This document shows, in pieces, positions 446-42,899 of a DNA stretch of 64,000 nt. The notes beneath the pieces are model-generated. The model had not been told where the DNA came from and did not search any database. It saw only the letters and a list, made by a program, of their open reading frames with translations. A program made the position numbers and the translations under genes. Numbering within the stretch: the stretch's first letter is position 1; each line of letters opens with the position of its first letter. This DNA is from Marchantia polymorpha subsp. ruderalis (lineage: Eukaryota > Streptophyta > Marchantiopsida > Marchantiales > Marchantiaceae): contig AP031353.1 of NCBI GenBank assembly GCA_037833965.1, positions 28,708,501 through 28,772,500 of the forward strand, written 5' to 3'.

Positions 446-3400
446 ATGGAGAAGGCTACATCTTCTTCGGCGACTGATGTAGGGCAGAGTTCTACACAGA
501 CTTCTCCAAAATCTGAATCTCAATCGGCTACTGATGCCGAAACATTTCCTGTTGTCTTAGATGATATGGGAATTGAGCCGATTGTCAAGACTACAGTAGC
601 TCTTAGAGGAGGAAGACGAAGTGAAACCTCGTCTACTCGTATGCCCAGAGACGGTCATGGAAAGAAAATCGGGAGACAACGCCGAATGTCCACCGGAGCG
701 GTGAACAAGCCTCTTGAGGACACTGAAGCTTCTGAGTCGTCTGGGGGTCCTCAAGCAGCTTTTCAAGATGACTCTTTAGGATGGGAAGATTGGCAGGAGT
801 TCGTAACATCCGGAGATTATGTTGGCACTGACGTCGTTGCAGACACTAATGAATTATTGAAATTGCTTGATGCCTTGGAACCGTATGTTCCTCGTATGCT
901 TTTTGAAAGCAGTCTTTACGATCATGGTAATAATTCCAACTTCAAAAATGTTTGTCTCAAAATTGCCCTGATTTGTTCAACCGCGCGAAACCTCATTTCA
1001 TGCGCTACCATCGTTATCCTTTAGCAATCAATCATTCCTATGAAGCGAGAATACATACAACCTAAGCCGTGGTTGCTTACGTATGAAGGGTCCTGTATCG
1101 AGCTAGGCGGTGCAGTGCTGCAGGTGAGAAAAGATGAGCATACTAGAAACAATTTTTCACGTATGGAAGGTTAAACAGAACTCAAGAAAAAAAGAGCAGA
1201 CCACCAACTTTGATATGTGGATTGAGGTTACAGCAATATAATTTTCCTTTACAGTCAAAAGGACTCAATCTACTACCACTATAACATTTTCGTCACAAGA
1301 ATTTTATATTACATAGCACTTTGAAATGCGTCAAAAGTAAGCAATTCTCCTAATGCCGTCTACTTTTCACGAATCATGACGCTGAAAATACAGTGTGTTC
1401 GCCAGTGCACTGATTATCGATATACGTGTAACGTGGCAGACACTCAGTTGAGCAAAATACCGACAATTGACAGTTTATTCGGGGCAGTGATGATCGCCGA
1501 TATTACTGGATTTACAACCTTGACAGAAAGAGCTCTTACTTCTAAGCGTGGAACTGAGCTTGTGGAGGAACTGCTTGTGGCCATGAACAACTACTTCACG
1601 GAGGTGAGTTTCCTTCGTGAGTCTAAAAATCTCACACACTGATGATGAGAGGTTAATACAATAAGAGATTGTCAACAGTTCCTGGAATCAAGTTATGGTT
1701 TCGACTCAGCCTTGATACACCCTTTGATGGAATTGTCTGCAAAACTTGAATGTGACCCTCTCTTCTCATGGAATGGTAGATTGAGCTTCTATAGATGCCT
1801 TGTACCAAATTCTTGCCTGATACACCTAATACACCGAATATAATGTTGGACACCTAGTGCCTTCGCGGTACCTTGCATCCAACAGAACGCTATATTGGCC
1901 GACTGAAGAACTTGCTGGGTTGATTGAACAGGCAGGTGAGATTGTTTCGATGTTTGGAGGTGATATAATCAAGGTGAGAATCCAATCTACGAGAGTAGAA
2001 CCAATTATTTTAATTGCTTTCAAATTGAACTGCAACAAAATAGCAACGAGACCTACGATGGCTAGAAATCGCATGGTTTTCCTCTATGGGTAAGATAAAA
2101 TAGGAATAGGAAGTACTATACTCAGTATCCAGCTCCTTCGCACTCTGGCAGAGCAAGGTATGGCCTGTTAGAGCTTCAACCTATAGTAATTTGCCCAAAG
2201 AGCATGTTTGTCAAGAGGGTCTGTCAAATTCTTTTGTTTCTGATCCCAGCTTCGTCTTCATCTCGTCGTCACATGTTCCGGCCGTGCTTCTGGGAATGTT
2301 AGTAACGGGCTGGACATCGTTTTGACTTTCTAACTTCGTTCTGTAGGTACACGGGTCCTCTTTCATCGCATCAGTCGATAAGAGTCCTCAGTAATGAGAC
2401 ACAATGTCCTTCGACAGTGAAGGAGCATCTGAGCTTCTTACTCTATCGAGCACTTCCAGCTGTCTCCCCCTTCAAACTTTCTGTTCCAGATATCTCATAA
2501 TTTATTTCAGGTCAGTCTTCTCTTAATATCGGTGTCTTGTAGGTTGATTTGGGGGTTGCAGTTTATATTTGTTCACAAATTTAGGCAGTAAATACTTTTA
2601 CTCTTTTTGAAAAGAGACAAATGAAGTGACGTTTAAATATTGCAATTGTTAAAGAGAAGTTTTTTCGATTTCTTTCCATTGTCCAGGAAGGTCAAGGCAT
2701 GAATATTTCGCTGTGCTTGCTGCCTCATCAGTGAGGGACAGAAGACTGATGCAATGAGAGAAGAATCATGCACATAGGCCGTTATCTACTCATTGACATT
2801 CTTCTTGTTGATCGTTTCCGAATAGATCTCTTAGTCATATACCTACTACTGCGTACTAGCTGGTATTTGTTCATTTATGGTTGCAAAAACTCGTTCCTTT
2901 GCTCCTCAGACCTCAGACAATACGACCTACAACAATCTGTTAACTAGACGAATTGGTTGTCTGCACAGTATGCCGGCGATGCTATGATTATTTGTTTTCC
3001 CATACTCCCATCGATTGCGGAGGTGATTCTCGTACTTGACTGAACCCAGGACACTCCTTGTACAGGAAATTTGTCATTTTAGTTAGTTAATTAGTTTAAT
3101 TCCTTACAACTCCAGTTTTTTATATATTTCAAATTTCAAAGTGTATCCCTGTGATTTGTAACTCAAGCACTGAGAGAATTATCTCATCCATGATGTTTTT
3201 GCTGTGTTGAAAGACGAGATCTGCCCTTGCTTTGCGAGCAGCTGCATGTGGACTGGAGTTAATCACCAGTCTAGGTGCTTACACCCCTCAGGTGATTTCT
3301 TTTGTCTTCGTTTTAACTGTTCTTGATCTAGAGTAAGGAGCATTTGAGGTAGGTGTAGCTTCTACATGTGGCATACTTGAGCTCATGGCTTCCTTTCCAG

Positions 3401-6400
3401 TCTCTTCAAGTACATGGCCTAACCTGAAGTGAGGTTCTTCCGCTCATCAAAGTCATTGTCTCGTATGTAATTTAAGGCGCACGACTCTTAAGAAGGGACT
3501 GTATTTGTAGTCGCCGTTTGGAGACCAAGTTACTGATATCCACCCTAGGCTGATGATTAATCTTTGTATAGTGGAATTTGCAGAGCGATGAAAAGACGAT
3601 TTCCTATACCCCTAGGAATAGTTTTCTTACTCTCTGGTTGTTGATTGAGTGGTAATTTTTGCTTAACGTTCCTTCAGCTGGGAGGATATGGAGATACTTT
3701 GATCGCCAGTGATGGGAGGAAGAAAAAACATGAGATGATTAGGAGATTGCGGCCTTCCAGCCCGAGTCTTAGCAAGGAAATCAACACGGACAGGCATTTG
3801 AGTGTTCTGGTCGTTGATGATTACCTGATCAACCGTGTGGTCCTTAGGCAAATGCTCATCAAGCTTAACTGTGAGGTATTTATAAGTATTCATGCATATA
3901 GATATAAATGCCCATTAAACCTCTCTCCAAACCTTGCAAGGTTGGTTTATACCTGTAACGAGATTTGATGAGAGTAGGAAGCAAGGTTTTTGAACCGCGC
4001 AGGTAGGGGGTAGTTCTATCTTACTTTGAAGCGGTTGAAGCTAGTGTCTCATGTCCTCACATGTAGGTAAGAATTGCATCGAATGACCTCTGCAGGTTAT
4101 GGAGGCTGACAGTGGGAAGGAGGCAGTCGCAGCGAATACCAAGGAACAGTTTGATGCCATCTTCATGGATGTACACATGCCTGTGATGGATGGGTGTTTC
4201 GCAACCCGACTTATTCGACAGAGCAGTGAGTCCTCAATTGTTGCCTCCTGGGTGCAATTCAACTTCTATGTCATGTGAAGGTCAGAATACGAAACTATAT
4301 TTACCGTTCTAGTATACATGATAAGTCAGAGAAACATTCAGTCTTTCAAAGTCAAATAATTGGCTCACTAAAGATGTGAGTTTCAAAACAGTGTTTTATT
4401 CTTGTGCTCGCGAGTGGATCTTCGTTCTTGATTGTGGGAAGACAATGTTGGCTTACCGTCTTGGGTCAGTGAGCTGTTATGGGTTTTCCATTCAATGTGG
4501 GGGCGAAGACAATATTGAATGACATTTTGTTTCGTATCTTAAAGTAGCTGCTAGCATTCGGTGAATGTGACTTGTAACTAGTAAGAAAATTCGATGTTCA
4601 CCTGGTTCTTTCAGTATCTTACACATTGTTTGAATCTGCTGAACGCTTCACTGTGAACGATGATAGGCAGACCCACAACTCCAGTCATCGGGGTACGTAT
4701 TTCTCCCCGCAAAACTACGTTCGTACATCTCAATAAGTTACTTGTTACCTGACATTCTAGCCATATTGAAATATTTGATATCAGTTAGTTAGGCCTCTTG
4801 CACAGCAGTCTCTTCCAGTACATCCTGTATCAATTGTACTCCTTGATATCTAATATAAATATGTTTGACAGGCTAGTAGGGAATATATCAGAAAGGTCTC
4901 AGTAAGATCTGCTTTCCAAAAGGCCTTGTCAATCAAACTGTTTGTATTGCAGGTATGTACCAAATCTGACGATGATCTGAAGGGACGGTGCCTGATTGCT
5001 GGCATGGATCAGCTCCTTGTGAAACCTTTGGTTATGTCAGAGCTTGTTGCGGTTTTGAGAGGTCTGAAGTCTGTTCGTAGTAATGAAACCAGCTCTGACA
5101 GCTCTCGTACGGGAACAACAGCAGTTACCGAAATCGAAAAGGGGATTTATAAGCAGATTGACCCACCTAAGCATTCGAAACACAGAAACAGCAACGAGCT
5201 CATGCACCAGTCTGCAGCTGCGGTTCCGGATGCACCTGTTATCCTCACAATGAAAGTTCTTGTAGGAATCGGCCAGGTACAGAAGGCTTCCTTTATACTC
5301 ATGCTTAAATTACCATGTATTCTCCACAGGAATTGAATTTCAGGCCTCGTTCTTAACATTACACTTTCTTAAAAACGTATTAAGGCTCTCCATCTGTAAA
5401 AGTATGGTGTTGAGGCCTGAGACTTTTGATACCCCTTCGTCGCACCCACCAGGTTGGCATGGTGAGTGTTGGTGGAGGTTTGCAAATGCCTTCTGGAAAG
5501 CCTCGATGGGAGTACTTTATGGTAGACTTGCCAGTGCCTCCCGATATCGAGGCTCCCCTAAGTCGGAAGCCCTTGGAACAGCTTCGCATCTGTGAAGAAT
5601 ACGCGACTCCTGGTAATTTTTCTAACTTCAAAGAGCCCTAATCTTGAAGACACTTGCTAGTAGGCTTTATTGGCCTGGAGGATATCCAGTAACTTATTTC
5701 TTGCACATGTGAATTCAGCAGATGTTCAATGAATCACATGTGCAATACGTCATACTCTTCCAGTCTTTCAATAACTTCAAAAGAATATCCTGCGTATCAA
5801 GTCACAATTTTTGCTCCACAACACGGAGAGTTACTTTACAACATAAAATTCCTTGCTGATTGCAAATCGATCATCACACTTATTAGTACCTGTCTCTGAT
5901 CTGTCCACGAAACTCATCTTTGCTGACTCACAGTGCTTGACTGTGGAAAATTCTGATGTAAGCTCCCTTACGATGCCCCTATTTATTAGCATTAGGCTAA
6001 AAAAAATTACTTCTGCGTTGCTCTCATGTTGTGCATCAATGCCCTGTCTTGATACTCTATTTTTCCGGTCGCATCTTTAGCAAAGTTCGCTCTCTGGCTA
6101 CATCCTGCTCAATCACCGACACAGGCTCAATGATTTTACGTCCCAGACCTTCCATGCGTGGCTAGGGTTGATAGCATATTACAGATCAGGAGAGTCTAAT
6201 TTGATTATTGTACCGTTACATAAGAAGCCAGACTCGTCCCACTTCCGATATGAGAGAATTCTTTAAAAGTTTATTTGAAAATGACGTTCTATAATCACCC
6301 GAAAATATACCGTGTGAACCTAGTTACTTGATTCTACAAGGCTTCATCAATAGAAGTTGCAGTTATACACGATGTATTCAAAACAAGTTCTGACTCTACA

Positions 6401-9400
6401 ACCGAGTCACAAGATACGCGGATTGATCTGGTGAGGGGTTTTTCTAAACAGGAAGTGTAATCTTATCTCCAGAAGTCTGCGCTCTTTGTCAGAAGGATTG
6501 TAAATGGGAACTTTTGGCCGATGGATTTGCCCGACTTGTTTATGTTAAAACTCATTCGTATGAAATACCTCCACCAAGGACTCGTTTTGATGTCAGTCGG
6601 GTCCCGCCTGCCACTGTTATCCTGAAAAGGTATGGACTTGTAATGTGCTGATTATTCAGACGAATCTTGTGGTTCAATGTTCCACCTATATTTACTGAGT
6701 TTGTATTTCGTGACATCTTGTCCGCATACTTTGGTCAAATGAACCCTCCCTCCTCCCTTGTTGACTCATTCATACTTCGTGGACTTTCTCGAGCACTTAA
6801 TATCGTTATAAAACTGAAGAAGGACTACTCCATAATACTCGTCCACACGTTAAACCTTAAGACATATAATATAAGTGTAGCATACATATTGCTGTGGTTC
6901 CTTTCGTTTATTTCACATTTTCGAATAACCTAAGGCTCAGTAGATGTTCGGTATAGACTTTTTAGCGCCGGCGCAAGCCGGCGCTAAAAAGTCTATCATA
7001 GAAACAGTTACGGGTTGAGAGGAATGAGGAAGGGATGACCTTGTCAACACAGAAGTAGCCATATTCATCCTGCACGAAGCATTTTGTACACACATGGTCT
7101 AAACTCACCGTTCAAACTTCAGAAGAGGATCTAACTAGATCATCGATGAATGCACCTTCCAGGCTGATTTTAAAATTTGCGTTTTGGTTGTTGAAGAATT
7201 GCCTTTTGGAATTTAGTTCTAATGACGAGGTCGTTGGGATTTTGATCCTGTTCAGACACGCGTTGGCAGTAAGATATCAATGTCTTATGACTCCATGCTT
7301 AGGTACCTACCAGACATGTTAAGAAGCAAATTTGAAGCTGTTTCTGCTAAGGACGGCGGTGCAGCGGGTGCCAGGCCTGAAGTTCGACATGTGACATGTC
7401 TCTTCCTGTGCTTCCCTGGATTGTCAAACATGAGAGGCAACAACTCTGATCTCCTGAACAATGTTCAGAAGATAATGGTTGCTGTGCAGAGGTCCCTCCG
7501 GACATTTGATGGCTTGCTCGTTCAGTTCAAAATGGATGAAAAAGGTACTAAGGTATTGATGGCATTCGATAGTTATATAATACCTTCGTGATTTTCCACT
7601 ATTCAGATGTGACCTCCGTAGAGGAGCAATAAGGTTCATGAAAGTACTATTTTGGGTGAGTTACAGCTGGTAGCTGAAGCTACTAAGTTTTGAAAGAGAT
7701 AAGTCTAAACATAATGTCTTCAGCTGACGGGACTTGGTGGAGATACCTTAAACATCTATTGCTTGCAAGACAATGACGAAATCTCGCTCATCACAGGGTA
7801 TGTGATGCTTTGTGCATTTGGTCTTCCTGGAAATTTGCATGAAGACGATCCTAAAAGGGGTATTCAGACAGCACTAGAAGTTCATCAAAATATTACAGCA
7901 TTGGGTCAAACGACCGATATCGGTGTTACAACAGGAAAGCTTCTATGTACAGTTATTGGAGGCGAAAAAAGGCGCGAGTACACAGCTTTTGGAAACTGCA
8001 TCAATCTAAGTGCAAGGCTCATGAAAAAAGCAAACAACGAGGTAACCACATATACTTTAAGAGCTCTTGTGCCATTCTGCAAATGACGACGACGATGAAT
8101 CCAATTGAATAATTGTAGATCAAGAGTGTTCATCCTTGACAATGTCCAATAACTAACTATTACTGCAAATTTACTCAGCTGCATTTGCCATTTGCCTGCC
8201 GCCAATATTTATTGTCTGTATCTAACGAGAATTACAAGTATTGTTGCACATTCCGTGCTTGCTTAACATTGATTAGGCCTTTGCTTCACGCTTGCCGTAC
8301 TCCCGGGCCCTTGTCTGAAAGTTTTTAGGTTCAGCTCTTCGGATAAACTTACTCTCTTGATATATGTCTTCAGTGTATATGAGTTATGAGCGAGCATGAG
8401 TTAAGAACTGAACGTTTTTTTTTAGGATGTCGTAATCACACCTTCATTTGAGGTTGTCATGCTTACGGTGATGATAAAGCTCATGACTTTTCTCAGTTAA
8501 GAGCTGATTCACACAAGTCGTTTCTACCTTGTCCTTTTAAAAATCGATTAGCGCGCACGTTGGTATTCACTGAAGCGCTTATAAGTCCTATATGTGATAG
8601 TTATGTATATATAAAGTGATAGCTAATTGAAGCCGGCGTTCTCTAAGTGGTATGAAGGTTGTTGTTGAGTGAGTATAATGCAGGCTGTCTTCGTTTTGAT
8701 AAAATGGTGTCGAGTGACTGTGCAGTCTACTTCTAGTCAGGGCATTATCTCTGATTCCTGTTAGCTCACGGTTCTCAAGCCTGAATACATTTTCTTTTCT
8801 AATCTTCAATCTTTGGACCGTCAATGAAATTTTACTATTTGGAAGGTGAGAAGATAAAAGAAAACTGGGAGGTGCACAGTTGAGAGACGTACGGCTTTGA
8901 TGGACATGTGCTGCTTATGATGATGGAATCATCTACCTGCTATACTCACTGCTTACGTATACCTGCATGTTACTTCTCATTAAAGTCAAGATTAGACCTG
9001 ATCTGATCCGAGTCAAAGATTTTCTTTTTATTCGTAACGTTGTCGACGCACACAAGCACAAAGAGTTTACTGCAAAGTGTGCAAATTATTTCTTGGTTGG
9101 AATCGAGAATCTGGTTATATCAGGTTCCCAGAGTTTGTTAGAAGCCCAAAGTGACTCATCGATCAGCATTCATTAGATTCTGCACCCTGTGAGAGAACAT
9201 GTCAGGCTCCTCATACGTACTTCCACACAGTGCCCAGGCACTTTGTCCTACTAAACGGGGCTGTATTGACCACAGGAGTCAATGTTACCTGTTTGTCAAC
9301 TCCTCCCCTCCGTTGGAACCCATCTCTACTTGTGTCTGGCCTCCTTCCAAAAGCTTTCGTCCGATCTGACTCTACCTACACACCCACTGGCAGTCAGTAT

Positions 9401-12400
9401 GATGAAATCCACAGTCTGTGGGTACGACAGTGTGACAGTAGCTTCTTCTCCTAAGCCTTGTTGGTTCTTCGTGGCTATTCTGATAGGATTGCACTTTGTA
9501 AATATCTTTGACTATTTCCTCGAAGTCTTCTCTCGCTGGTTTGTACTATTTCCATATCTATGATATTCCTGATCTATCTGCTGCTTGACTTCAAGAGTCT
9601 TGGTTTTCGCTTTCACCGCTCAAGAAGACAAATTATGGTCTCTAAAAATCTCCAGTTGCTTGATAGTACCAGATTCGTGTATTTCTTGTTTGTAGGAAAT
9701 TTCAGAAATTAGAACTAGATCTGATTAACTACTGAATAAATCGTTGTTTGATTGTAACTATTTCAGGTCCTCATTGACTTGGAGACGTACAATTCGACAA
9801 GTGGCGAATTTGTAGCCGAGCCTCTACCTCCGATGAAAGTCAAAGGCAGAACAGGGCTAATTCATGTATACCGTGTAGTGAAGTATAATGCAGCTGCAGG
9901 TTCTGTGAGCCCCGTGAGACGCTTGTCCGATGAAGTTGGTTTTACTTCTGCTCGTGCTTCGATACAGGTTGAACTAACGGCTGACATTTTTGGGAGAAAA
10001 ACGGAATTGGACTTGGCCATCTCTAAGATTGAAGCTTTCATCACTAGGTCTTCTACCATTGAGGCCCATAAAGTGAAAAGAGGAAAGAGTGAACTATCAA
10101 ACATATGTGAAGTGCAACTTAAGGACGCTGAAAACAATGAGAGTAATTTGACCAACGAAGAATCTGTCAACGTCACAGACAGTTCATCAGAAATTACTCC
10201 ATCACTCGAGGAGATTTCGTTATTAGCCGAAGATGTTACGTGCTCTGCTATTGTCATAATTGGACAAGCAGGCATTGGGAAGACGAGGTTGATGAAGGCC
10301 ATCGGTATGCGCTTATTGAAGCACCGCGTTGAGATCATTGGCGTAGGTAGTGTGAACAGCAACATGTTGGTATACGGAGTATGGGGGAAGCTGCTTCTGG
10401 ATCTACTTCCTTTTGAACCAATTTCTTCTCCAGAGGAGAGAGGTCTCGTTGTCTTGAAATATCTAGATCCGGACTTACATGAACATGCACATTTGCTGAA
10501 GGATGTCATGAAAGTCCAGTTTAAGGTAATTCGAATCAAGGAGCCGGATGTAGGCTTCATGGTCAATCATGTGATATACCACTCAACAGCTAAGCAATGA
10601 GTTCACTCCAGGGCTCATTCCCATTACGGACAGAAGAGCGCTGGATTATGTGCTTCGCACTGAAGTAACTGCACACTGATCCCAAATGCTTCGGTCATTG
10701 CAGGATGCTAGTCTTGAAAAGAATGTTCAGAAAGAGCCGAAGAGATCACATATGTTAAGGCGGACATTCAGTGAACGAAGAGCCCCGAAGGTAACTAACT
10801 TCGGACTACTAGAGAAGATTTACGTTACATGAGGATCAAGCTGTCACAAAAAAGGTAATTGTTATGAAGTTGTTTGGGTTATGAACGAGTTTGGGGTTGA
10901 GTGAGTCTTTGGTAACAGGAAACAGGAAGGAGGGTTTCGTTCATGGCCAAAGTAGCAGCGCAGGGAGCTCTAATAATTGGAGGAAAGAGTTCACAACCAG
11001 AGCAAAGCGTACTAGAATCACTATCGCAGACACGCCCAGCTCTTGAAGGTGGTTCTGGATCCGAAATGGATCCCATGCATTCCACGGATGCAGAAGATGA
11101 ACGAACTCAGGTGACCAGCTTATCAGGAAGTTCTAAGTCGTTAAGTACAGAAAGCGCGACTTCCATCTCTGATACTGAGAATTTTGCATACAGTGCAGCA
11201 CAGAGACTTTTAGTTGATTCTGCGGTACTAATGTCTAGACGAGATTCTGAGGTGCTTTCCCCTGATACTAGAACACAAAGTCCATCTAACTCACCCGGCG
11301 ATGATAACATTGAACTTGACCTTCGAGCGGCAAGAAGGCGAAGTTCAACAGACTCGCACCTCAACAAAACTACTTCACCCGAGGTCAAGATTCAACGACT
11401 TGGAAAGTTGTTGCTAAGTCTGCTTCTTGCAGCTGCCAACAAGCCTCTTGTGATTTTTCTTGAGGATGCACATGTATCCTTCTGCCTCGTGACACCAATT
11501 GCAGCTGGTTACAGTTGTTTGCTTATCGGAGTGTCCTTTTCTGATATGAATCAGCGCAAATTGGAAGAAATTTTTCTAATTTGATTCAAATCAAAGACCC
11601 ACTCAAACTTGTCCTACAATCATTTGAGTTATTAATGTTCCACTGGACGTTGATACTGCTAAAGTTTCAATCAATGATTGCTTAATTGACGACTAAAGAT
11701 TGTCCATTAGTATTGGCCTGAACATAAATGCAGCGCGTCATGCCCGAGCCGTTGTGAAGCAACGAGCAAAGATTAACTGAAATAAATGCATGAGAATGGT
11801 GGAAAGAAAACCCGCAGTGGATAGGCTCCTTGACATGGATCAGCATATGGACTATCCTTCTTGGTCAGTGTTAAGAGAACTGAGTGAGCAGAAGAACAGT
11901 GGTATTCTGGTAATTGCTGCTTGCAGGTTTTGGGGTGTCCATGCTCCTAAGGATTTTACTGCACTTGTGGGGGCTCAGTCCACTCTCCAGTTGCATTTGA
12001 GGTGAGAATTCACGACGATTAATTTATATGTTTCCAATGAGTTGAATGTTGCCTCCACTTGCATATATTCTTGACATTTGTATCAATACAGGGTAAAAGG
12101 TATAAGCCTCAGGTTGTCTGCAGTCTTATTTATTGATTGAATGCCAAATCAAATATCGGTATGAACTGAGTTGTTTTAATGTTGCCTTAAAATGGTGTTC
12201 CTCGTTCCTGATCATAGTAGGTACATATGCAAGAAGAATCAAATGACAATCCTTGTATACCTACTCTATAATTACAAAATATCAATAAGTGCTTTACATG
12301 CATGTGAGATATTTGACATTAATGTTACATAATACTACAAATGAGGATATGGTTTCATTTAATAAGTTCAAAGTGTTAGATTTCTATAGGTTTCTTCCCA

Positions 12401-15400
12401 AATGAACACAAACCTTGAGCCAAGAAGGGGTTGGCTCAGTTTTCATATTCACTTTCCTCAATCTAACATTTAGTATCAATTATTGCATCGCTTGGGTCGC
12501 AAATAGATGCACGTAATAACCTCGTCGTCCTCACAACACAGCGAGCCCGTTACTCTTACCAGATACTACCTTCTCTCATGCGACCCATGCACATCGCAAG
12601 GCTGTGGTCTTCCCTCCAAAAAACTACATCCCCCACGATCCTTTTGAAATGTGCCACTATGACCGCATCTCCAGAATCCGACACCTCGCAACCGATCGCC
12701 TTGATTTCCCTTCCCCTCTCGATTGCTCAATCGAAGATCTTTTTTAACTCCTAAACCCTGAACAAGGACAAATCCTCGTCCAGATTTTGGTTCTAAAACG
12801 CTTCCAGAACTTAGCAGCCACTCTAATTGTCGAGAATTTTGAAACTCTAGCAGACCTTCCGTTTCTTTTAGTTATTTCACTTTCTTTCCAGATTAGTTAT
12901 TTGGTAACACTACACTGTTCAGAACCTTGTGATATCATCAGATTAGATTTAACACCAACATATAGATCTTCGTTGATTATGTGTTGATTGTAATAGGTTT
13001 CGTCGATAAAAGAGACGAAACCTATTACATTTTTGCCTATCTATGCACAATCGGTATTTTTGTCATTTAAAAAATGCATGAAAACAAGATGTTCACCTGT
13101 GAGATGTATGTGAGTCATATATATTTTACAGCTACAATTAGAGCATTTGCAAGATTCTTAATCTTTGGAACATTTTTCCCTTTTTTTTTATCCTTGTCTA
13201 TCACTTGGACAAGAGATGTATGTTATCTACCTTAACGTATACATCTAATTCAATATTTTCAACCAACCGTAAGGTTTGTTTTAGATTCAACACTTCTTTG
13301 TACTAGTATGGCAAGGATGAAGGCTTATAGATATTGCTTTGATAAAGCATCAATACTTTTTTGACTCGCATAAACTAATTTGTTTCAAACTCCGAGCTTC
13401 CGCCTTTGCTTGATTATCTACTTACAGCTTTGATATTGATTTGTGGTCGCAACAATAACTTAGATGCAAAGAAAATGCCACATGATTTCTTCTACATTTT
13501 TTTAACAGAGTAACACTACCTTTAGTACAATTTGGGACGTGATTTTCATCCATGTCCAAGTCGATGGTAAATTCACACTTTTGCTTCATAATTCTATTTC
13601 GTACCTTTTTATACCAAAAAACTAGTCACTTGTAAGCAGAGATCCCATGGATGAGTCTGGTTCAGAAGTTTGCTAACTATCAATTTTGTATAGTGAGTCG
13701 TTGCATGCAGTAGTGATTTTGAACATTGTGACGGACTCTTTAATTTACGACTTCAGGGAACTCGATGCCGAATCGACAGAGGCTCTGATCAAGCACCGAA
13801 TTTCCAGTGCGTTAAATGCCGAAGTAGACATACCTCGCCACGTGTTGCAAGCAGTCTCACGACGTACACAAGTAAGGTTTCAACCTGACCCCTCTCAACA
13901 GGATGTTCAATTTTACACCGGGGGCATCAAAACAAATCCGAACAAAATTCTACATAAGTAGATTCTTTTCCACGAAATTCTCTCCCCAAACCACTCACAA
14001 TATCACTTCAAAATTATATGGATCGATGACTCATGTGGTTCCATTTTTAGCGTGTACCGCTAAAAACTATCATTTTATAGAACTCCCTAAAATCTCATGA
14101 AAGATTAAATATCCGTGACCTTGGAAGAGTCAACAGAAAGTCTAACGAAATGGCACCTTTCCTTCGATCTGATTGGGCACTTTCTGTCTAACCCATACCA
14201 ATATTTCCGTAGGTCGTGAAATTCTGTCACGGGAGTGTTTTGGAACACCCTATTGGCTATGAATCCAAGTGTTGGTTTTACAAGAACATTTCACATTCAT
14301 AGGATGATCATCTTCCGCTGCTTGTGAGCAGGGACATCCGCTGTTTATTGAGCAAATGGCTATGGCTTTAGTGGAGCAGAAACTTAAAGCTTTATCTAAC
14401 TCTCAAGAAGAAAGGAAGAAGGCTCTCCAAACACTCAATCTTGATAATTTCAACTTCTCTCATTCCATGGAGGCTCTTATTACCTCGCGTGTCGATCTTC
14501 TTGAACCAAACCAGGGTCTGGCCCTGAAAGTAAGCTAAGAAATATTCTATCGATGCGGTTATGCTTTTTCATGTTCCTTGACTTCATTCGCCATACTTTT
14601 TGTAGGAATCTGATATATGTTGTGAAACTTCGAAAATCAGTGTGTGAATTTGATCTATGTGGATCGCTTGTAGATGACGTAGCTACCAAACCTTGTCGTT
14701 GGTCTCTTTTGCAATTGCCATAGATTGTATACACTCAAATAAACCCAAAGGTGGATTTTAAGAAATATTATTGAGGTCAGAAATCTCAATGTAATCCTCA
14801 CCACATTATGCCTAGTTCAATGTGGTGAGTATGGTGGTGGAGAGTTCAACAAGTTCAAACTGAACTAGTTTGTAGATTTATGTTGTAAAAAATATTAGAA
14901 TAGTCTTACTCACTTATTTGATTAAAATCTAAAGGAATTTGTAATATATTAATTCTGATTACAGTACAAGTTGTTAATCCAATCTTGTAACTTTGAATAT
15001 ATCAGATTGACCTTTGAGCATTAACACACGAATGCGAAACCTGAATCATAGTGTTCGGTGTCGCCTTTGCGAAAAGTAGTAAAAATTACCTTCTATAACT
15101 CACCTTGTATTCAATATACAATTTTTTATATGATCCGGCTCTCGTATCAATTCACAACACGGGAGAGAAACTGAAGATTGTATGTAATTTATATTTTTTA
15201 TAATATTCAATGTTAATCTACTGAAGATGGAGTTTAAGGGAGAAATCGGTAGTCTTAAGCTGACCTTGTTTTACTCCGACCTCAGTGATAGAGGTTGGTT
15301 CATTCAAGGTGTGGTCTGAAGAATATCATTTGATATCAAATGATATTCTTCAGAAGCGAACCTGCTAAATGAATCTTATATTCTGATCTACGACCTAGAA

Positions 15401-18400
15401 ATTTGATGTTCCACGTTAATATCCAGTAGTCTGCTGCCTATGGTTACAGAGAATGATATACTGGGACGTCTTGCTGTCTGTCAGAGAAACCATTGAAGTT
15501 AAAGTTCTCTAGAACCCACCGAGTCTCCAAATCAACACGTTGTCAATGTGCTGGTCTTGTGTTCAAACATGCCTGTCTGCTTGATCTCTCCTTGGACAGA
15601 AGCCAACGATGGGAACCGTTAACAGGTGGCCAGTGTAATAGGACTTTCCTTCTCTCCGGGCTTTCTTCTATCTATTCTCAACCGGCAACTGCAAAGGTAT
15701 TTTTCTGATCACATCATCCTGTTGACTTTCTCTGGCCTCATCTTGATTATTGTGGTCTTATGTTCATAATGCCTGTCTGCTGACTTACCTGTGTCTCTGA
15801 GAACAGTTTCTCAGAGTCTTATAAGTCGGCAGCAAAGCTCTCTGTTATGAATGGTTGTTGAAACTCTAGATGTCATATTTACAACAATCTATGAATCATA
15901 GCATGTGAACTAAGGTCTGATCTGAGAATAGATTGTGACTGGAAGCAATCTATTTTGGAACAGGGAGGAAGTTGCATGCCTTAACAAGGAACAGCTCGAA
16001 GTTGCCTTGCAAGGGCTTGAGAAGCTGAACTTTATATTTCAATCAGTTCTGGATGCAGGATGTAACTATTCTTTTGCCAACTCGGTATGTGAGATTAGTT
16101 CAGCAGATGTCCATATGTGTTCATCAATACCAAAAACTTGAACATTGCACCGCTTTGTACTCTCACTTGTACCTTAACGAACGAGAAGGAAGACATGGTC
16201 AAACAACTGAGCACAGTCTGTGGGTCATGGCGTCTATGTGGAAAGCGACGTCGAAAGTTGACAGGATCACAATGTTGATCGCTCATGTCACTGCTTCTGT
16301 CGCCATAATTCTCAAAGTCAAGAAGAGCGGAGATTCTTATTGATTAACTTGACGATCAGGTAACGAAGGATGCGACTTACGAGATGCTGCCAATAAAGCA
16401 AAGGCGTACAATCCACGCTGAAATAGCTCAGGAGCTTCTGAAGCTAGGAACTAGTGGAGCGCGGTGTGTCACTATTGCCCAGCACTATACGATGGCTTGC
16501 AAAGATGTTGAAGAGTTGGAGGTTGACCTCGCTGCCATCGCCATTGATCATTGGCAGGAAGCAGTAAGTACAGACCTCAGATCCATTCAGCTTAGAACTT
16601 TTAACAATTGAGATAGCCAAGAGTTACTAGCTTACACTAGCTGGTGCACATGAATGAAAATGGTCTACTGTTTCTCAAACTGAGAGCATCGCCACTAAGA
16701 AATACTAGCTTTTCGCAAGGTCTAGTTTAGCCCTGTTTATTTCTATACGACACGGATATTTCAAACTTGAAAGCCTGTAAAAAAACCGTTTTAAGTTCCT
16801 CAATTCTGATGAGGGGATCAGCTCTTACTCTAGGTTTAGTAAGTGATAGACCTCTCCACATGAAGGGGAATGTTGTTCAATCGCTAAGTCTTCAGAATGT
16901 GATGCCAACTTTTCTCCATTTATTCCGATCGATAGAAAAGCACTGCCGTGTGACGATGCTACAGAGATGTCCCAAACTACTTAATTATAGGCTCTACATA
17001 GCTTGAGGGTCTGGAACAGCCGGTTCTGCAGCAAATGCCAACTGAGATCAAACATTTGTTTTTCTTATGTCCTGACCGATTTAAATGAGATTGATCGAAA
17101 GATTCCACTCTTTGCTACAGAGTTACTTCGTTTTAGTCTTCTTCGTTTGAGTGCCCTCGTAGGTAACACCTAATGCCATGCTGACACCAGAGTACGAAGC
17201 ACTGCAGATGACGACCCAGGTCCTGTAGTGTCGTCTTCTAAACTTATGACCAATGTACAGAAATCGAAGACAAGCCATGCATTTGTTGTTGCTCTGCAGC
17301 TCCTAATTTAAGAGTTAAACAACTTCATGTGCTGTGTGCTTCCAACAGGCGTCTAGTGCCATGTTCAAATTTGGTCAGTATAAGTTGGCAATCGAGTATT
17401 ACCAAAACGCAATACATCTCGAGAAACTTGCTCGTGCTGATATACATCCGCAGCGGATAGCAAGGTGGCATTTTTACTTAGCAAAGGCGTATGGTGCATT
17501 GGGCGACATGGACAGCAGTTTGGAGAACACAATCAAGTCTCTTGATTACGCAGGGGAGAACTCAAGTGACTTTACCATGCAGCAGCAAACGTCCGCTAGT
17601 TGTTCGGCCAGTCTTTTGGCGAGGATCTCATCATGGAGGTCGGAGTGTCAGAGTGGTATACTCAGTTGGCTTGCTACAATAACAGGCAACACAGGCAACG
17701 AACAAGTGCTTTTTTTCAGATGCGAAGCTCTGGCCCACCTCTCACAACTTGCTATAGTCAAGGTACAATGCTTGAATTTTTTTTTCTATTATTTGTCTTG
17801 GAGTTATCGTGTATGTAATGACTGCATCTCCTTACTTGTCCGACACATTTGTCGCTTATAAACTGGACAAAGCTTTAAATAAGAGCGGAGACAATTAATT
17901 TGTAGAATTTGTTAGTAGAAATATAAGGGGAGAAAGGTCTTTTGAACCTTTTGGAGACTAGTATTCACAATACTCCAACTATCTGACGCCCATGTTGTTG
18001 GAACCAATTTTCAGGAGGATGTCACATCTTCCAGAAAAATCATCAAGCGGTACCTCGCAGTAGCCAACGAGGTCAGCAGAATTCAACCTCTCGAGCTTGC
18101 CCGCGCCTACTCCATGAGTGCTATAGTTTCGATGTCTGCTATCAAGGCTAGATACAAAGCTCGAAAGAGTTATGAATTTTTACAACTCCATGCCGGGAGT
18201 ATACGTCCAGCCGTCCAAGCCGGAGACATTCACTTCAATCTCGCAAAACTATGTCAATTCCAAGGTTGAGTCTCGTGCATTACCTGCCAGGTGCGTTATT
18301 GTTGCTTATTGCGGCCATCATTAGTTCTGAAGCATGAGTTCGTACCTAACATTCCATGGTGCTGCAACAGGCAAGTGGCTGAAAGCAGAGAGACATGCAT

Positions 18401-19822
18401 CATCAGCACAACGGATGTATGAAGCAAGCCAAACTCGAAGAGAGCTTGATGTGTGCCGGTGTATTATAGGTCTGGGACAGTTGTACCAGGGTCAGCTTGA
18501 GACTGCTCGTGAAATGGGCATGAGAGTGCTCGAATATCGCCATGAGCATCCTCAACTCCTTTACTGGTCTACCTATCTCGTAATCGCTTGTCTCAACACT
18601 ATGAGACGTTTCAAGGACTCCTCTGATGTCTTTGCCCGAATAAAAAACTATCCTTGCCCCCTGCTCACCTTGACACTCCAGGTAAGAGAGAGCTTCTTAA
18701 AGCTTTTCTTCCACTTTCTGCGATCAGATACCTTTCGTGGAGTATTACCATGACATTGCCTGAGAGTGGCCATCATCCTCTCATATAATCTCAAGAGAAC
18801 TTTCGAACCACAAGGCACGCTCATAACAGCATTGATAAGGGATTTATGTTGATTATCTCATTCACAATATGCACCCCAGCAATATCTCTAGATCGTATCT
18901 TAATAAGGGAATCGTTCCTGGTAGTTCTGCGAAGTATATTCTGCAGCACAAGCAAATGAACTTGAATTGAAGGTGATGAAAGCTGTACTCTGACTGATAA
19001 CAGGCAAAAGCGCTCGGCTGGTTGTCAGCTATGCACCTGGGTGAAGCTGAGGCGACGATTAAGGATGCTGTAGCCTTAGTTCCACGGTTATTGGAAATAG
19101 TTCCTCTTACTCCAGCGTTTCCCTTGGCTTATGCTTCAGCTGCGGAGGTATTGCTTATGTCACTAGAAAATAATCAGGTGCTTGAAGTTGAAAGGACCGT
19201 TAAGGAGAGGCTTGTGGAGTGTCTGGTGAATTTCTTCAAGACATCATCTGCAAGAATAGGTGTGGCTCTCATTATCACGCTTGTGTATTCCAAGTATAAC
19301 TCGATTCACATCTCCCTTCACCGTTCTGTCCAGACCTTTTGAGTTTGTGTGCGGTAAGTTGTTTCAGAAAACCTATCTGATGTCAAGAGATGCACACTTT
19401 TATGGAAACTGAATGTTTCACCTGAAACCAGGCTCCACATATCAGATACATTCGCTTCAAAGCTTGCCGTATCCCAGCTATCCTTATCAGGTGGAGTATC
19501 TCTTCCTGGATTGTGGAAAGAAAATTTAACATCATATTCTGCTCTGCTGCAGAAATATGCGGCCCATTTTATATGTATTATCAAGCTCGCTTGGTGCTTT
19601 TTAGAGGAAACAACCAGATGGCTCTATCGGGGTTTGAAGGAGCAGAAAAGGAAGCTCTGAGACTGAAAATGTTGTAAGAAAACCATACCTTTTGTTGGTT
19701 TGACACCTACGTCCTCTCAATCATGTAGAGAATCGCTCATTGATGCTCAAATGTCGAGGAGGCTTGCTGTGCATCCGATGCGAAAAAGTGACTGCAGTCC
19801 AAATCACCTTTTCGAAATCTAG
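446..19822 (+). CDS. Soluble (class IIIb, ADCY10-type) adenylyl cyclase with a response-regulator receiver domain nested in cyclase domain 1
   Basis: Predicted to make cAMP from ATP in the cytosol. My model has 29 GT-AG exons with all phases matching: 446-926, 1440-1603, 1932-1973, 2969-3022, 3214-3291, 3678-3875, 4096-4225, 4667-4692, 4953-5276, 5453-5612, 6473-6629, 7270-7544, 7797-8041, 9767-10525, 10590-10664, 10704-10790, 10919-11473, 11844-12001, 13757-13871, 14332-14529, 15626-15696, 15964-16084, 16360-16563, 17349-17762, 18015-18264, 18371-18681, 19004-19259, 19553-19673, 19729-19822. The total is 6,123 nt, 2,040 residues; human ADCY10 is about 1,610. Order: Ser-rich N-tail (1-115), cyclase C1 (about 161-270 and 486-600) interrupted by a receiver (314-430), cyclase C2 (about 606-795), P-loop ATPase (853-1440) and helical TPR-like repeats (1560-2030). 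The start ATG has a strong ACCATGG context. The least certain junctions are exon 12 start, exon 24 interior and the last exon. Confidence 0.88.
1440..3291 (+). other. First half of cyclase homology domain C1
   Basis: Exons 2-5 encode the metal-binding part of a class III cyclase domain. The motif [12 protein letters not shown] places the first metal Asp at residue 181. FGGDIIK followed across a splice junction by YAGDAM gives Lys229 and the second metal Asp at 233, matching Asp47, Lys95 and Asp99 of human ADCY10 by motif position. The domain then runs to the helix [17 protein letters not shown] and stops, about halfway through the usual fold. Confidence 0.88.
3798..5069 (+). other. Response-regulator receiver (REC) domain inserted in C1
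   Basis: Residues 314-430, encoded over exons 6-9. The strand LSVLVVDD supplies the acidic pair (Asp320, Asp321). [15 protein letters not shown] supplies the phospho-acceptor Asp364. LLVKPL supplies the conserved Lys415. [13 protein letters not shown] is typical of hybrid histidine kinase receivers. The usual Thr/Ser of strand 4 is shifted: after PVIG come Val, Cys and Thr, so the canonical position seems to hold Cys. A basic linker precedes the domain and a Ser/Thr-rich linker (431-485) follows it. The receiver is flanked by phase-0 introns at both ends of its exon block. Confidence 0.9.
5231..6629 (+). other. Second half of cyclase homology domain C1
   Basis: The cyclase fold resumes with [21 protein letters not shown], whose counterpart in ADCY10-type proteins is the 'VGIGAGEV' strand. 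It continues with [13 protein letters not shown] and an [12 protein letters not shown] segment that corresponds to the 'GEVVLSP' stretch. The transition-state Asn/Arg pair is not seen here, as expected for C1 of tandem soluble cyclases, where C2 supplies it. Confidence 0.82.
5701..5745. repeat. Inverted repeat in intron 10 of the cyclase gene
   Basis: Two perfect 12-base arms, 5701-5712 and 5734-5745, with a 21-base loop. The left arm reads ttgcacatgtga. Confidence 0.7.
6953..6996. repeat. Perfect 20-bp hairpin with GCAA loop in intron 11
   Basis: Arms 6953-6972 and 6977-6996 are perfectly complementary, with a loop of only four bases (gcaa). The inner part of the stem is GC-only (gcgccggc) and the outer part AT-rich. 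In RNA the loop would be a GNRA-type tetraloop. It lies inside an intron and is not coding. Confidence 0.9.
7270..8041 (+). other. Cyclase homology domain C2
   Basis: Exons 12-13. The linker [15 protein letters not shown] is followed by [14 protein letters not shown], the strand where C2 domains have lost the metal Asp. DEKG gives the adenine-binding Lys696. [18 protein letters not shown] gives Thr759, Asn766 and Arg770. Thr instead of Asp at the base-recognition position is the mark of class IIIb cyclases, the group stimulated by bicarbonate. All residues known to be needed in C2 are present. Confidence 0.9.
9767..12001 (+). other. STAND/AAA-like ATPase module of the cyclase
   Basis: The module opens with VLIDLETYN and [12 protein letters not shown], the usual exit from C2, then FGRKTEL before the P-loop. 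Walker A is GQAGIGKT (residues 944-951). Walker B-like is [11 protein letters not shown], ending at residue 1270 and continuing across the splice site into HMDYPSW. Between Walker A and B lies a Ser-rich, probably disordered insert (about 1105-1240). Downstream exons add GHPLFIEQM (1362 on) and VASVIG (1428 on), both typical of this ATPase family. Confidence 0.85.
12002..13756 (+). other. Long intron 18 of the cyclase gene, with hairpin
   Basis: A 1.75-kb AT-rich intron, the longest in the gene. I see no coding sequence in it. It contains a perfect hairpin with 15-base arms at 12990-13004 and 13014-13028. It also has a run of clustered pyrimidines and poly-T stretches near 13160-13190 and 13490-13510. 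Confidence 0.7.
12990..13028. repeat. Perfect 15-bp hairpin in intron 18
   Basis: The left arm gtaataggtttcgtc (12990-13004) pairs with 13014-13028 across a 9-base loop. Confidence 0.85.
14797..14829. repeat. Inverted repeat in intron 20
   Basis: Perfect 11-base arms ctcaccacatt (14797-14807) and its complement (14819-14829), with an 11-base loop. Confidence 0.7.
15315..15354. repeat. Perfect 40-bp palindrome in intron 20
   Basis: The 40 bases equal their own reverse complement with no spacer. The left half starts tctgaagaatatc. AT-rich palindromes with no loop are unstable in many genomes, so its intact state suggests it is recent or selected. Confidence 0.92.
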
Positions 19823-22120
19823 TGTACGCAGGATACTAAGTTTTGCTAGAATTTGTCCTTTTCGCACTTCGGAGTTCATATTTTGGTGAAAATATTTTCA
19901 GAGATCAGCGTTCATGAAAGAAGTTATATATACATGGAGGAGATTTGAGCCTTACTGTGAGAACACAACACACCACTACGATGATTCGATCGGAGTGCTC
20001 ATATATTAGAATCTTCTGTACTTCTGATCTTTCAATGACTTTCTTACCTACACTCTCAGATCAAAGCTTCGACGGGAGGTTTGATTCTTGCACGTCAGAG
20101 CTAGATTTTGAGAAAGATCGGATGTGCAATGTGCAGGCCTCTAGCAAGTTTTGCTCGCGACGGGTGTGAGAGCTGCATCTTTCGCTCAAATCAGCGTCCT
20201 TGAAGTGCCTGTTGGAAGACAAGATAAGCGAGTCAAGTGAATTTTGCGCCAGGGAGCGGCAAAACTTTTGTGCAAACTTCCAGATGAGGGAAATATTATG
20301 AAGGTTTTTTTAACGAAGTACAGTTTAATTCACATTGAGATGCAATTTTCAACATAATCACCATTCACTCCAGGCACATTAATTGAAGGTTTTCTATTAA
20401 CTACATAAATAACTAATTATTCATAATAAAGGGGTTACTAGAGTACTACAAGCTTCAGTTACTATTAGGGCTTTTATAATAAAGGCTGACTTTCGCCATA
20501 ATGCAGGATTGCCCTTACGCGGCCAACGAACTCATACTAATGCTAAGACTTGTCGCAAATTAAGATACGTTTCGATTAGAAGTTGATAAAAAATTTATAT
20601 TTTTTTTTTCAGTTTGTACAAAATATCTTTGTAATTAGTAAACGGATTAGATGGATCATAAAAAAACAAAATCGATGATATCAAACAACACCAAAAACAT
20701 TCAATAAACACTTATGCAAAAAAAGCACGGTATTACTAATATGCATATATATAAAGAAATGAGGTGAATACCATGGGCTTTTGAAGTTCTCAGGAATGGA
20801 AAGTCCAAACTGTCTGAAAACATTGAACTAGCCATCTTAATAAGTTACAAATTCCTGTAATAACACCTGATAGCCTCGTTATGTTCCTAATACTATAATT
20901 TCTAATGATTACCTTGTGTCATTGCCAAAGCAATCATTAGTAGCCATGAATGATGGCCAACGTTTTGTGCATATGTATCTGCATTCATTCAAATTTTTTT
21001 AATGAAAGATGAAAAAGAATATACTCAAATTGATAAGAAAAAACTTTAAGCTTATTTAAAAGTAACTTATAATATATTTGAAAAATGTAAGTATGGATTA
21101 ATTTACAATTATATTAGGTTATCGATATAAATTTTGATAATTAAAAGATTAAGAGCGTTTTACATCCCAATATTGCTTATTTTCTTTAACACTATGGGTC
21201 TTTGAATGTAATTTGACAGTTTTATAATAGACTATGAGCACCTAGTGCATCAATACTTCATCTAACAAATTTAAATAAAGAAATGTGGTTATCAGAAATT
21301 TTCAATATATCTTGTTGTTCATTTGATAATACAATAGCTTTGAGATTTCAATCAAATTACTTAGTGAAACTACCGTGTTAAAAAGACAGCAACGTGGTGC
21401 AATATGCCATATGGTGAAAATTTTTCACTCTATATTTATACAAAACATATTGTGACATATTAGCATTTGATCGAAAATCAGAATCAGTAGTAAAACACAT
21501 AAAGTTAAGTGAGAGCAAATACGATAAGTCAAGACACCAATGTAAAATAGTTAACCACAAAGAGCCACGTCCATGGGACAAGCTTAGCTGTGAGAGTGTA
21601 CTAAGTACTCTTGTGTCGTACACAAACCCTAAAGTTAAATACCCTAGCACCGGCGATCCTTCTACTTTTTTTAGCTAGTACTTGAGGTTACTCTTTAACT
21701 AAAGTTAACCTCAACAATCTATCCTTTACTCGTATTAAGGAAACAATAATTTCTGTAACTTATATTCTTACTTCACAAAAGGTTCTACAAAGAAACTTAA
21801 CACAAGTGTACTCTTTACACGAGAATTTACTAGAACTAAACTCTAGTCAAATCATGATAGAGTAATAACATAAAGAGGTAACTAAAAACTTGCTAGCATG
21901 GAGGAAATAGACATCTGGTAATATATATAATTACTCGGCGAGAAGTTCTAGTAAAAAATTATAATATTAGGTCTCTCTGTACATGAAAGTTAATTAGAAT
22001 TAAACGGTAGACATCACACAATAGAGTAATTATCTAAAGAGATAACCGAAGATACTATGCTAGCAAACTTTACATGTACTCTCCATGCACAACATGTATA
22101 ATACCATAGTGTCGTTTGAA
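19823..22120. other. AT-rich spacer after the cyclase gene
   Basis: The first few hundred bases probably hold the 3' UTR. The rest is AT-rich with many short homopolymers and no frame of recognisable protein. Near 21760-22080 two diverged copies of a segment containing 'actctagtcaaatcatgatagagtaat'-like text and a 'tgctagca' string suggest an old duplication. Confidence 0.5.
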
Positions 22121-23631: not shown

Positions 23632-23643
23632 TGGTATCAGAGT
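23632..23643 (+). other. Primer-binding site (initiator Met tRNA type)
   Basis: tggtatcagagt immediately after the LTR is one base from the TGGTATCAGAGC site used by most plant LTR retrotransposons. Confidence 0.75.
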
Positions 23644-29610: not shown

Positions 29611-30157
29611 ATGATTTTAGGAGTGTGAGCACAAAAATGTGCTCGCATGTCATTTTAACGTTAAAGACAGTCAAAATTTTGGATTTAAGATTCTTGTAAA
29701 ATTATGTTTGGAGTTTTCTGAGAATTTCGGCAAGAGCCGGAGGTTTTTGAGGCTTGGTGGCTTTTGTGGACAAAGGCTGCCGGGTGTAGGAGGTCTGCGT
29801 GGTGGTGGCGGATTTCACAGGATTAATTTGTAGTCTGGTTTTGGCTTCTTTGAGTTTTAGGCGGGACTTTGAAGTTTATTTTCCTCGGGAACTTTGATAG
29901 CATATGTGATAACTATCGTCTTTTATTTTTAATTTCCTGAGAGGCGGGAAAGTGGTGTTGCCTTCCGGAGGTGTGACATTCCCGCACGGTGTGGCGTTAA
30001 AGCAAAACTGTTAGGCTTCCATATTGAGATCGTTTTGAATCTTTAAGTCGAGTTTGAGAGCCGCGATGAGGGCCATGATGATGTTCATCATTCGGGTATG
30101 AACATTTTAATTCAAATTTACGAATTTCTGCAGCAGTCCGGGAGGAAATTCTGGAAG

Positions 30158-31342
30158 CCGCAACTTTTGTTCATCCTTTGGGTCGAAGGGCGGAGCGACA
30201 GTCGAGGAGTACAAGAAGCGCGAGAGGGAGCACAAGAAGAGGTCTAAGAATTGTACTCGACCGGAGACTCTGAAACTCATTAGACTGAGAACAGATTTAG
30301 AATCAAGATTTGCCAAGAGTGGAAGGATAACGGAACTCAGGGACGAGATTGCCGAAGCACTTCAGCGAGAGAGAATTACTCGGGACGCTCAACAATGCCG
30401 AGACAAATGGGAGAAGCTCACAGCAGGATACAAGGAAGTTCGAGATGGTGTTAAGGATAGGGAAGACAATCCATTCTATGATGAACTTCATCCGTTGCTC
30501 TTAGGGAAGTCTTTGAAGCGGGAGCAAGAAAGGGATAAGGATACTTTTGGAAGCGGCAAAGAAGATGTTGGGCGAGACTACTCAGAAGAGTTGAGTCGAG
30601 AGCTGGTAGTGGATGGTTTTACCAGAGAGATTGATAAAGACGGTCTGTGTAGGAATGGAGCCAGAGGAAGAAAAACGTTCAAAGACAACGATGACGACGG
30701 AGACGAGGCGGAGGCCAGAACTCTGTCAAGAAAGAAGAAAGGGTCCTGAAGTACATCACCGTGAATGACCTCGCTGCTGTGCAAAGTTCTTAGAGGCAAT
30801 GATATCACAGCAACAAAGGTTTTTTTTTTAGAGATCTTCTGGACTCCATGGAGAGGAAATAACAGTTACGGAAACAAATTTGTCAGGAGAAAGAGGGTAA
30901 GTGGCGAGCTGAAAAACGAGCTCAACGGGGCATTATCAACAATGCGATGATAGTTCTCGCTCAGAAACTAGTTGGCGATCGCGTTAGTGCGGTCGTATCT
31001 GGTGTTGCTGGGCCATTGGTAGTAGAGAGTTTGGAGGGTCCTCAAGGTCCAAAGAGAAGGTCCAAGAACTGGAAAAGAGTTGAGGTCCTTCAGCTTATCA
31101 AGTTACGGGGGGAAATGGACAGTCAAATTGTAAAGTCTACAAGAAGAGCCGCACTCTGGGAAGAGCTTGCGGAGCTGCTGGCCGCGCAAGGTATCAAAAA
31201 GAACGGCAAACAATGTCAAGAGAAGTGGGACAAGCTAATGGCCGAGTACAACGACGTTGCCGATGGTAAACGGGACCAGGGTGAGAGTCCTTACGTTACT
31301 GAGTTGACTGCAATCATAGGGCGGCCGGCGGAGGCTGCTTAA
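30158..31342 (+). pseudogene. Double trihelix (GT-type) transcription-factor-like pseudogene
   Basis: Two Myb/SANT-like trihelix domains. The first (about 30236-30490) contains RPETLKLIRLRTDLESRF, ELRDEIAEAL and QQCRDKWEKLTAGYKEV. The second (about 31056-31325) contains NWKRVEVLQLIKLRGEMDS, LWEELAELLAAQGI and KQCQEKWDKLMAEYNDV. Both keep the terminal 'QC-x-KW-x-KL' helix. Between them a charged coiled-coil-like linker is broken: the first frame ends at 30748 and the next usable frame starts around 30870 after stops and a run of nine T. Two trihelices resemble GT-2-type factors. As it stands it cannot give one protein. Confidence 0.65.
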
Positions 31343-42793: not shown

Positions 42794-42899
42794 GGTCGGC
42801 TCTTGGTCGTGAAGAACGTCTCACTTGATGGCCGCGCCGGCTGTACGCTGGAACGGTCTTCGCTCTCACGCGCGGCTTCACGCTCCGCCGTCGTCGATT

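Follow-up and report, generated by a model that had tools for sequence, protein, structure and literature searches.

The window, by which is meant the whole stretch of 64,000 nucleotides of Marchantia polymorpha subsp. ruderalis DNA analysed here, contains a gene on the forward strand at 446-20203. Our model of this gene has 28 exons and a product of 2,002 residues. The frame contains no internal stops, and all 27 introns begin with GT and end with AG. The order of the domains in the product is C1 with a receiver in it, C2, a P-loop NTPase, and a TPR tail; the tandem C1/C2 followed by a P-loop NTPase and a long helical tail that is found in ADCY10-type soluble adenylyl cyclases (sAC) is thus present. 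In the Pfam scan C2 was recognized as Guanylate_cyc (E 3e-10), and the C-terminal part gave AAA_16 above the cut-off, other P-loop matches, and TPR_12 slightly below the cut-off. The domain scan, the structure matches, the identities, and the profiles were obtained with a 1,992-residue version of the model, the numbering of which is that of the final 2,002-residue model up to residue 611. Residues 384-2002 (1,619 residues) are identical to the M. polymorpha database protein MPTK1_3g24330 (P0001), after which the start of exon 12 (7303) and exon 28 (20137-20203) were set.

The gene model and its surroundings

Exon 1 (446..926) encodes the N-terminal region, residues 1-160, and was placed by its ORF and donor and by RRMS and WxxWQEF, which are common to P0143 from Sphagnum. 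The first part of C1 with the putative metal-binding Asp181 (ADITGFT) is found in exon 2 (1440..1603), FGGDIIK with Lys229 in exon 3 (1932..1973), and YAGDAM with Asp233 in exon 4 (2969..3022); all three are based on the structure match and the frame, exon 2 also on the C1 profile. Exon 5 (3214..3291) would form the C1 helix alpha3 according to the C1 profile and a homologue model, and its acceptor is weak. Exon 6 (3678..3875), also with a weak acceptor, encodes a linker (LGGYG...) and the N-terminal part of the receiver with Asp320/Asp321, as judged from Pfam and the Sphagnum alignment, while exon 7 (4096..4225) contains the phospho-acceptor Asp364 (Pfam, receiver alignment). Exon 8 (4667..4692) is a microexon of 26 bases encoding beta4 of the receiver (RPTTPVIG); its residues and the joint to exon 9 are matched in P0001, and the counterpart in P0002 from Riccia reads RPKTPVIG. 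Exon 9 (4953..5276) encodes the C-terminal part of the receiver (Cys393, Lys415), a linker, and C1 beta4 in one open frame (Pfam, C1 profile). The second part of C1 with Arg544 and the end of this domain follow in exons 10 (5453..5612) and 11 (6452..6629), both from the structure match and the C1 profile, the latter also from the frame. C2 begins in exon 12 (7303..7544; Pfam, P0001, frame), has its active-site Thr, Asn, and Arg in exon 13 (7797..8041; structure match, frame), and ends in exon 14 (9767..10525; Pfam, frame) together with the P-loop (GQAGIGKT). Exons 15-28 (10704..20203) encode the rest of the NTPase and the TPR tail, based on Pfam AAA_16/TPR_12 and the identity to P0001. An earlier note on this DNA had placed a complete receiver within C1 at 3678-5276; this interval is exactly exons 6-9 of the model, Asp320/Asp321, Asp364, and Lys415 have the same numbers here, and the exons join in phase without a stop, as it had claimed.

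The database model of MPTK1_3g24330 starts in exon 7 in the wrong frame (4190-4280), enters intron 7, and then continues in exon 8 (4667-4692). C1a and half of the receiver are lost through this error, and the gene deserves re-annotation. C1a is missing from both the Marchantia (P0001) and the Riccia (P0002) database proteins, showing that truncated gene models can conceal a domain architecture. No paper was found under the name Mp3g24330, and the gene may appear under another name.

That the gene is a pseudogene or an assembly artefact is very improbable. Little speaks for this other than some poor splice signals, namely the donors of introns 16 and 24 and the acceptors of introns 4 and 5, while the 28 exons are stop-free, most of the product is that of the database protein, and the identity to the Riccia protein is 54% over 1,252 aligned positions.

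Three of the introns contain perfect inverted repeats (6953-6996, 12989-13029, and 15315-15354, with arms of 20, 16, and 20 and loops of 4, 9, and 0 nucleotides), which are perhaps small mobile elements. Downstream of the gene, two adjacent ORFs at 30111-31342 (+) each encode a Myb/SANT-like DNA-binding domain (Pfam E 3e-16 and 1e-18). An ORF of 1,054 residues at 39656-42820 (-) is of low complexity and coiled-coil-like by eye, and gave no Pfam match at E 0.01, while an ORF of 350 residues at 54807-55859 (-) has a RING finger at its end (Pfam E 1e-7). The TGGTATCAGAG motif at 23632 (+) presumably resembles the initiator-tRNA primer site of an LTR retrotransposon.

The receiver and the two halves of C1

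Receivers normally flank the domains under their control. Here the receiver, residues 316-426 (Pfam Response_reg, E 4e-23), is flanked by the two halves of a C1 profile built from 31 bacterial-type homologue rows. Profile positions 3-99 match residues 170-271 (iE 1.3e-25) and positions 101-175 match residues 484-577 (iE 1.6e-6), so that 212 residues separate the halves and a single profile position goes unmatched at the insertion. These scores rule out a chance origin of the C1 match, and a frame artefact is ruled out by the stop-free frame and the open exon 9. From the sequence comparisons we regard it as highly probable that a complete receiver is nested within C1 of an ADCY10-like soluble adenylyl cyclase, as had been proposed. 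Pfam itself failed to recognize C1 in the full-length protein; with the receiver excised C1 reached 17.6 bits, below the cut-off of 21.9. A search of the whole genome (241 Mb, 9 contigs) with Pfam Guanylate_cyc gave no match, which has little weight since introns split such genes.

Human ADCY10 is the best match among solved structures, in agreement with the kinship suggested by the earlier note, with 34 bits for the first half of C1 and 60 bits for the C1 end and C2. When the receiver is excised, the first of these matches extends through the cut to cover ADCY10 34-147, poorly aligned near its end, and gains just 3 bits (from 34.0 to 36.9); the whole ADCY10 match increases by only about 4 bits (from 96.2 to 100.5).

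The insertion point corresponds to residues 128-130 of the homologue P0121. In the AlphaFold model of this protein (mean pLDDT 85.1) a helix spans residues 106-124, a short strand residues 127-130, and a long strand run begins at residue 133; Foldseek matches this model best to human sAC (E 5.9e-37). Since residues 128-130 are found between the helix and the strand run, the receiver is predicted to sit in the alpha3-beta4 loop of C1, which fits the earlier idea of an insertion into a surface loop.

When it comes to the catalytic residues, the C1 counterparts are kept: Asp181, Asp233, Lys229, and Arg544 correspond to human sAC Asp47, Asp99, Lys95, and Arg176, of which we take the first two to be the metal-binding pair and the last two to belong to the bicarbonate site. 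In C2 the counterparts of human sAC Thr405, Asn412, and Arg416, presumably active-site residues, are also kept. Lys334 of the human enzyme, which we assume binds adenine, aligns with a Gln in the window protein, though the register may be off and a nearby Lys may be the actual counterpart; by eye P0005 also has a Gln at this position. Judged from these residues the window protein is likely to be a catalytic enzyme, and given the Gln even the ATP preference of the predicted cyclase is not assured.

A probable single chain, and the relatives of the insert

The end of the receiver and C1 beta4 are both encoded by exon 9, which lies within a single ORF (frame 4869-5336) that also contains the linker, and their linkage thus needs no assumption about splicing. 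A separate receiver gene is ruled out for the same reason, and a transcript skipping exons 6-9 would still lack a normal C1, as beta4 would be lost with exon 9. Junctions 3-4, 4-5, and 5-6 in Marchantia are based on homology, phase, and splice signals. Scored with matrices derived from the gene's own 27 introns (leave-one-out), the donors at these junctions are good and reach 9.1, 9.0, and 8.4 bits against a median of 6.7. The acceptor ahead of exon 5 (intron 4) scores only -0.5 bits and that ahead of exon 6 (intron 5) only 0.7 bits, against a median of 6.2; 34% and 30%, respectively, of the AG dinucleotides in the gene score at least as high. The weak acceptors are offset by the good donors and by the Sphagnum protein.

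This protein, P0143 from Sphagnum balticum (a cluster of 12 sequences), is 35% identical to the window protein (E 3e-38). The alignment covers exons 1-3 and then exon 6, with LGGYG and the start of the receiver, and ends at the exon 6/7 boundary. P0143 lacks exactly the 44 residues of the phase-0 exons 4-5 (2969-3291), which encode the catalytic Asp and alpha3, and this gap is either a model error or a splice form without an active C1. In the Riccia protein P0002 the receiver, the linker, C1b, and the later domains are found on one protein, the model of which starts just before the receiver.

The start of the Riccia model and the weak acceptor of exon 6 could also be read to mean that a shorter isoform exists, which starts near Met293 in exon 6, has the receiver at its N-terminus, and comprises half of C1 and C2, with exons 1-5 belonging to a separate or minor transcript; mammalian sAC isoforms without C1 are predicted in the accessible text of one report (PMC12802110). 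This is unlikely, as exons 2-5 retain an in-phase first half of C1 including the catalytic residues, P0143 joins counterparts of exons 1-3 to that of exon 6, and the start of the Marchantia database model is clearly in error. The gene is probably expressed as one polypeptide chain, and the full-length protein and a shorter isoform may coexist.

The protein searches could find only proteins within a length window that share exact words with the query, and the matches considered are the best 120 of 187 and the best 120 of 417. Together with the window protein the 241 listed matches form a set of 242, drawn by queries containing the window protein and therefore no census, in which C1-like matches are present in 60 proteins, receiver-like matches in 187, and both in five. 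Among the matches listed these five are the window protein, P0001, P0002, P0143, and P0122, the last of which has its receiver ahead of C1 in the ordinary order. C1 is uninterrupted in 44 of the 60 C1-matching proteins listed. A search with C1a alone (234 candidates) gave one protein, P0241, and no further full-length plant relative, and the Chara database protein P0008 begins at C2.

The insertion site was inspected closely in 13 proteins. Inserts of about 220 to 1,070 residues are found at the same site of C1 in Trebouxia P0003, Parachlorella P0004, and Haematococcus P0034 as well as in P0007, and a fungal protein, P0067, has an insert near this site. Cyanophora P0074, Ectocarpus P0105, P0020, and P0027 have no insert there, and part of C1 is missing in P0002, P0009, and P0143. 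Under a stricter threshold on the 242 proteins an insert was flagged only in P0007, P0067, and the window protein, P0003, P0004, and P0034 going unflagged because their second C1 half scores weakly. Pfam found no receiver in P0003, P0004, P0009, P0034, or P0007; P0067 was judged by its row in the search results, which names no domains. The alpha3-beta4 loop appears to have been an insertion-tolerant site in the green lineage, and the receiver would have been acquired there before the split of mosses and liverworts. Two independent gains of the receiver are a possible alternative.

Possible regulation and comparison with known systems

The acidic pair Asp320/Asp321, the phospho-acceptor Asp364, and Lys415 are all present in the receiver, and these positions are kept in both Marchantia and Riccia. 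At the position of the conserved switch Thr/Ser the window protein has Cys393. In an alignment of 259 receiver rows, a set biased by the search, this position is Thr/Ser in 226 and Cys in three. The three must be the window protein and P0001, which represent one locus, and P0002, as each of them has Cys and is part of the alignment. Sphagnum P0143 has VADG where Marchantia has VVDD, and the second acidic residue is thus lost; P0143 has no Pfam match at E 5, and its receiver is recognized by pairwise alignment and a weak profile match (iE 2.6e-4). Compared with Riccia the receiver is the best conserved segment (89/116, 76.7%), followed by the cyclase parts at 66-67% (C1b 82/125; C2 57/85, the rest of C2, about half, being missing from the Riccia model) and the NTPase (274/495) and TPR (318/566) parts at 55-56%. 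The linkers flanking the receiver, about 40 and 50 residues, are variable and the least conserved, 27-30% (6/22 before and 17/56 after the receiver).

The receiver probably regulates the cyclase in some way. The best explanation, to which we assign a probability of roughly 0.45, is a single-chain ADCY10-type cyclase with a receiver in the C1 loop, where phosphorylation of Asp364 would most likely tune the cAMP output. C1 and C2 would form the ATP site at their interface, and flexible linkers would hold the receiver at the outer face of C1, where it would serve as a regulatory module. A histidine-phosphotransfer relay would phosphorylate Asp364, and this would change how the receiver docks to the C1 face formed by alpha1-alpha2/alpha3-beta4, which corresponds to the Gs-alpha-docking face of C2 in membrane cyclases. 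The changed docking would shift C1 against C2 and so tune the cAMP output. M. polymorpha is listed with two CHK, one HPT, one RRB, and one RRA in the part of the source available (PMC10338860), indicating that a phosphate donor exists.

In membrane cyclases the alpha1-alpha2 and alpha3-beta4 loops of C2 are described as forming the groove in which Gs-alpha is docked, and this docking rotates C1 (PMC2576301). Gi-alpha has been proposed to use a pseudo-symmetric site on C1 (PMC5608429). By analogy, a receiver tethered in the alpha3-beta4 loop of C1 may be well placed for a Gs-alpha-like action. However, in the accessible text of the latter paper docking puts Gi-alpha around alpha3 of C1, unlike Gs-alpha on C2, which makes the G-protein analogy a loose one (PMC5608429).

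The earlier proposal that phosphorylation of Asp364 could gate C1 is plausible, and less well supported than the nested architecture. The intact acidic pair, phospho-Asp, and Lys and the strong conservation of the receiver agree with it, while Cys393, the acidic residue lost in Sphagnum, and the long linkers do not; the linkers argue against a simple rigid coupling, and the coupling may be loose. Phosphorylation as the switch of the cyclase is quite possible, though short of probable. We infer that a cytokinin/ethylene-like phosphorelay could be tied to cAMP, as had also been suggested. The features that disagree with gating would suit a nested receiver that works unphosphorylated, as a pseudo-receiver or docking platform or as a cysteine-based or dimerisation module, holding a partner or placing the enzyme. 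The inserts without a Pfam receiver at the same site in three green algae also point this way, as the site tolerates other inserts. Such a role is conceivable but on the doubtful side, given the phosphorylation residues kept in Marchantia and Riccia and a receiver that is conserved above all other segments between them.

With tuning by phosphorylation as the preferred reading, the locus could represent a bryophyte cAMP switch in which a phosphorelay acts directly on the catalytic fold, the receiver taking the role of G-alpha via phosphorylation and not GTP, at an old insertion hotspot of green-lineage sAC where the receiver was gained before the moss/liverwort split; this wider picture is rather doubtful and should be taken as tentative. 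The gene architecture suggests a direct link between two signalling systems. If true, land plants, in which little is understood of cAMP signalling, would have a phosphorelay coupled directly to cAMP. The receiver, found beside C1b in both liverworts and beside C1a in the moss, would then exemplify natural allostery by domain insertion. With a single HPT gene reported for Marchantia in the available part of the source, the phosphorelay link is testable by ordinary genetics (PMC10338860).

The window protein resembles ADCY10/sAC in the C1-C2 tandem, the P-loop, and the long tail, and it retains the metal-site and bicarbonate-site residues, but it differs in the receiver inside C1 and in the Gln for Lys334. 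An ADCY10-type cAMP-producing enzyme drives animal sperm. Full-length ADCY10 is described as a C1-C2 tandem, a P-loop (STAND) domain, and a long C-terminal region (PMC12802110). Bacterial cyclase-AAA-TPR proteins, such as P0005 from Leptolyngbyaceae, likewise have cyclase, AAA, and TPR on one protein, but most of the C1-matching proteins listed have an uninterrupted C1, and in P0122 the receiver precedes C1. CAPE is, like the window protein, a class III adenylyl cyclase of liverworts, with an N-terminal phosphodiesterase and a C-terminal cyclase domain (PMC5159850); the window protein contains no phosphodiesterase domain in the Pfam scan, which rules out membership. For Marchantia, CAPE and one further AC-like gene, Mp7g08500.1, are named in the accessible text of the CAPE papers (PMC8115329, PMC5159850). 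The chlorophyte sAC-like proteins P0003, P0004, and P0034 have a large insert at the same C1 site, but no Pfam receiver.

A receiver and a class III cyclase on one chain are already known from dictyostelid ACR (AcrA) and P0122, and in Arthrospira CyaC, a bicarbonate-type class III cyclase, the receivers are N-terminal to the cyclase. The domain list of ACR contains HATPase_c, two receivers, and a cyclase domain, and by our own reading of this list, as far as that source is available, the receivers are not nested (PMC4399386). The earlier note knew of no described protein with a receiver within a cyclase fold, and none was found in the literature searched, subscription papers and supplements being outside its scope. 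While the receivers of the CyaC and ACR fusions lie outside and ahead of the catalytic domain, that of the window protein is nested in C1, and it is this position of a receiver, inside a cyclase catalytic fold, that appears new from the literature searched and is very probably real.
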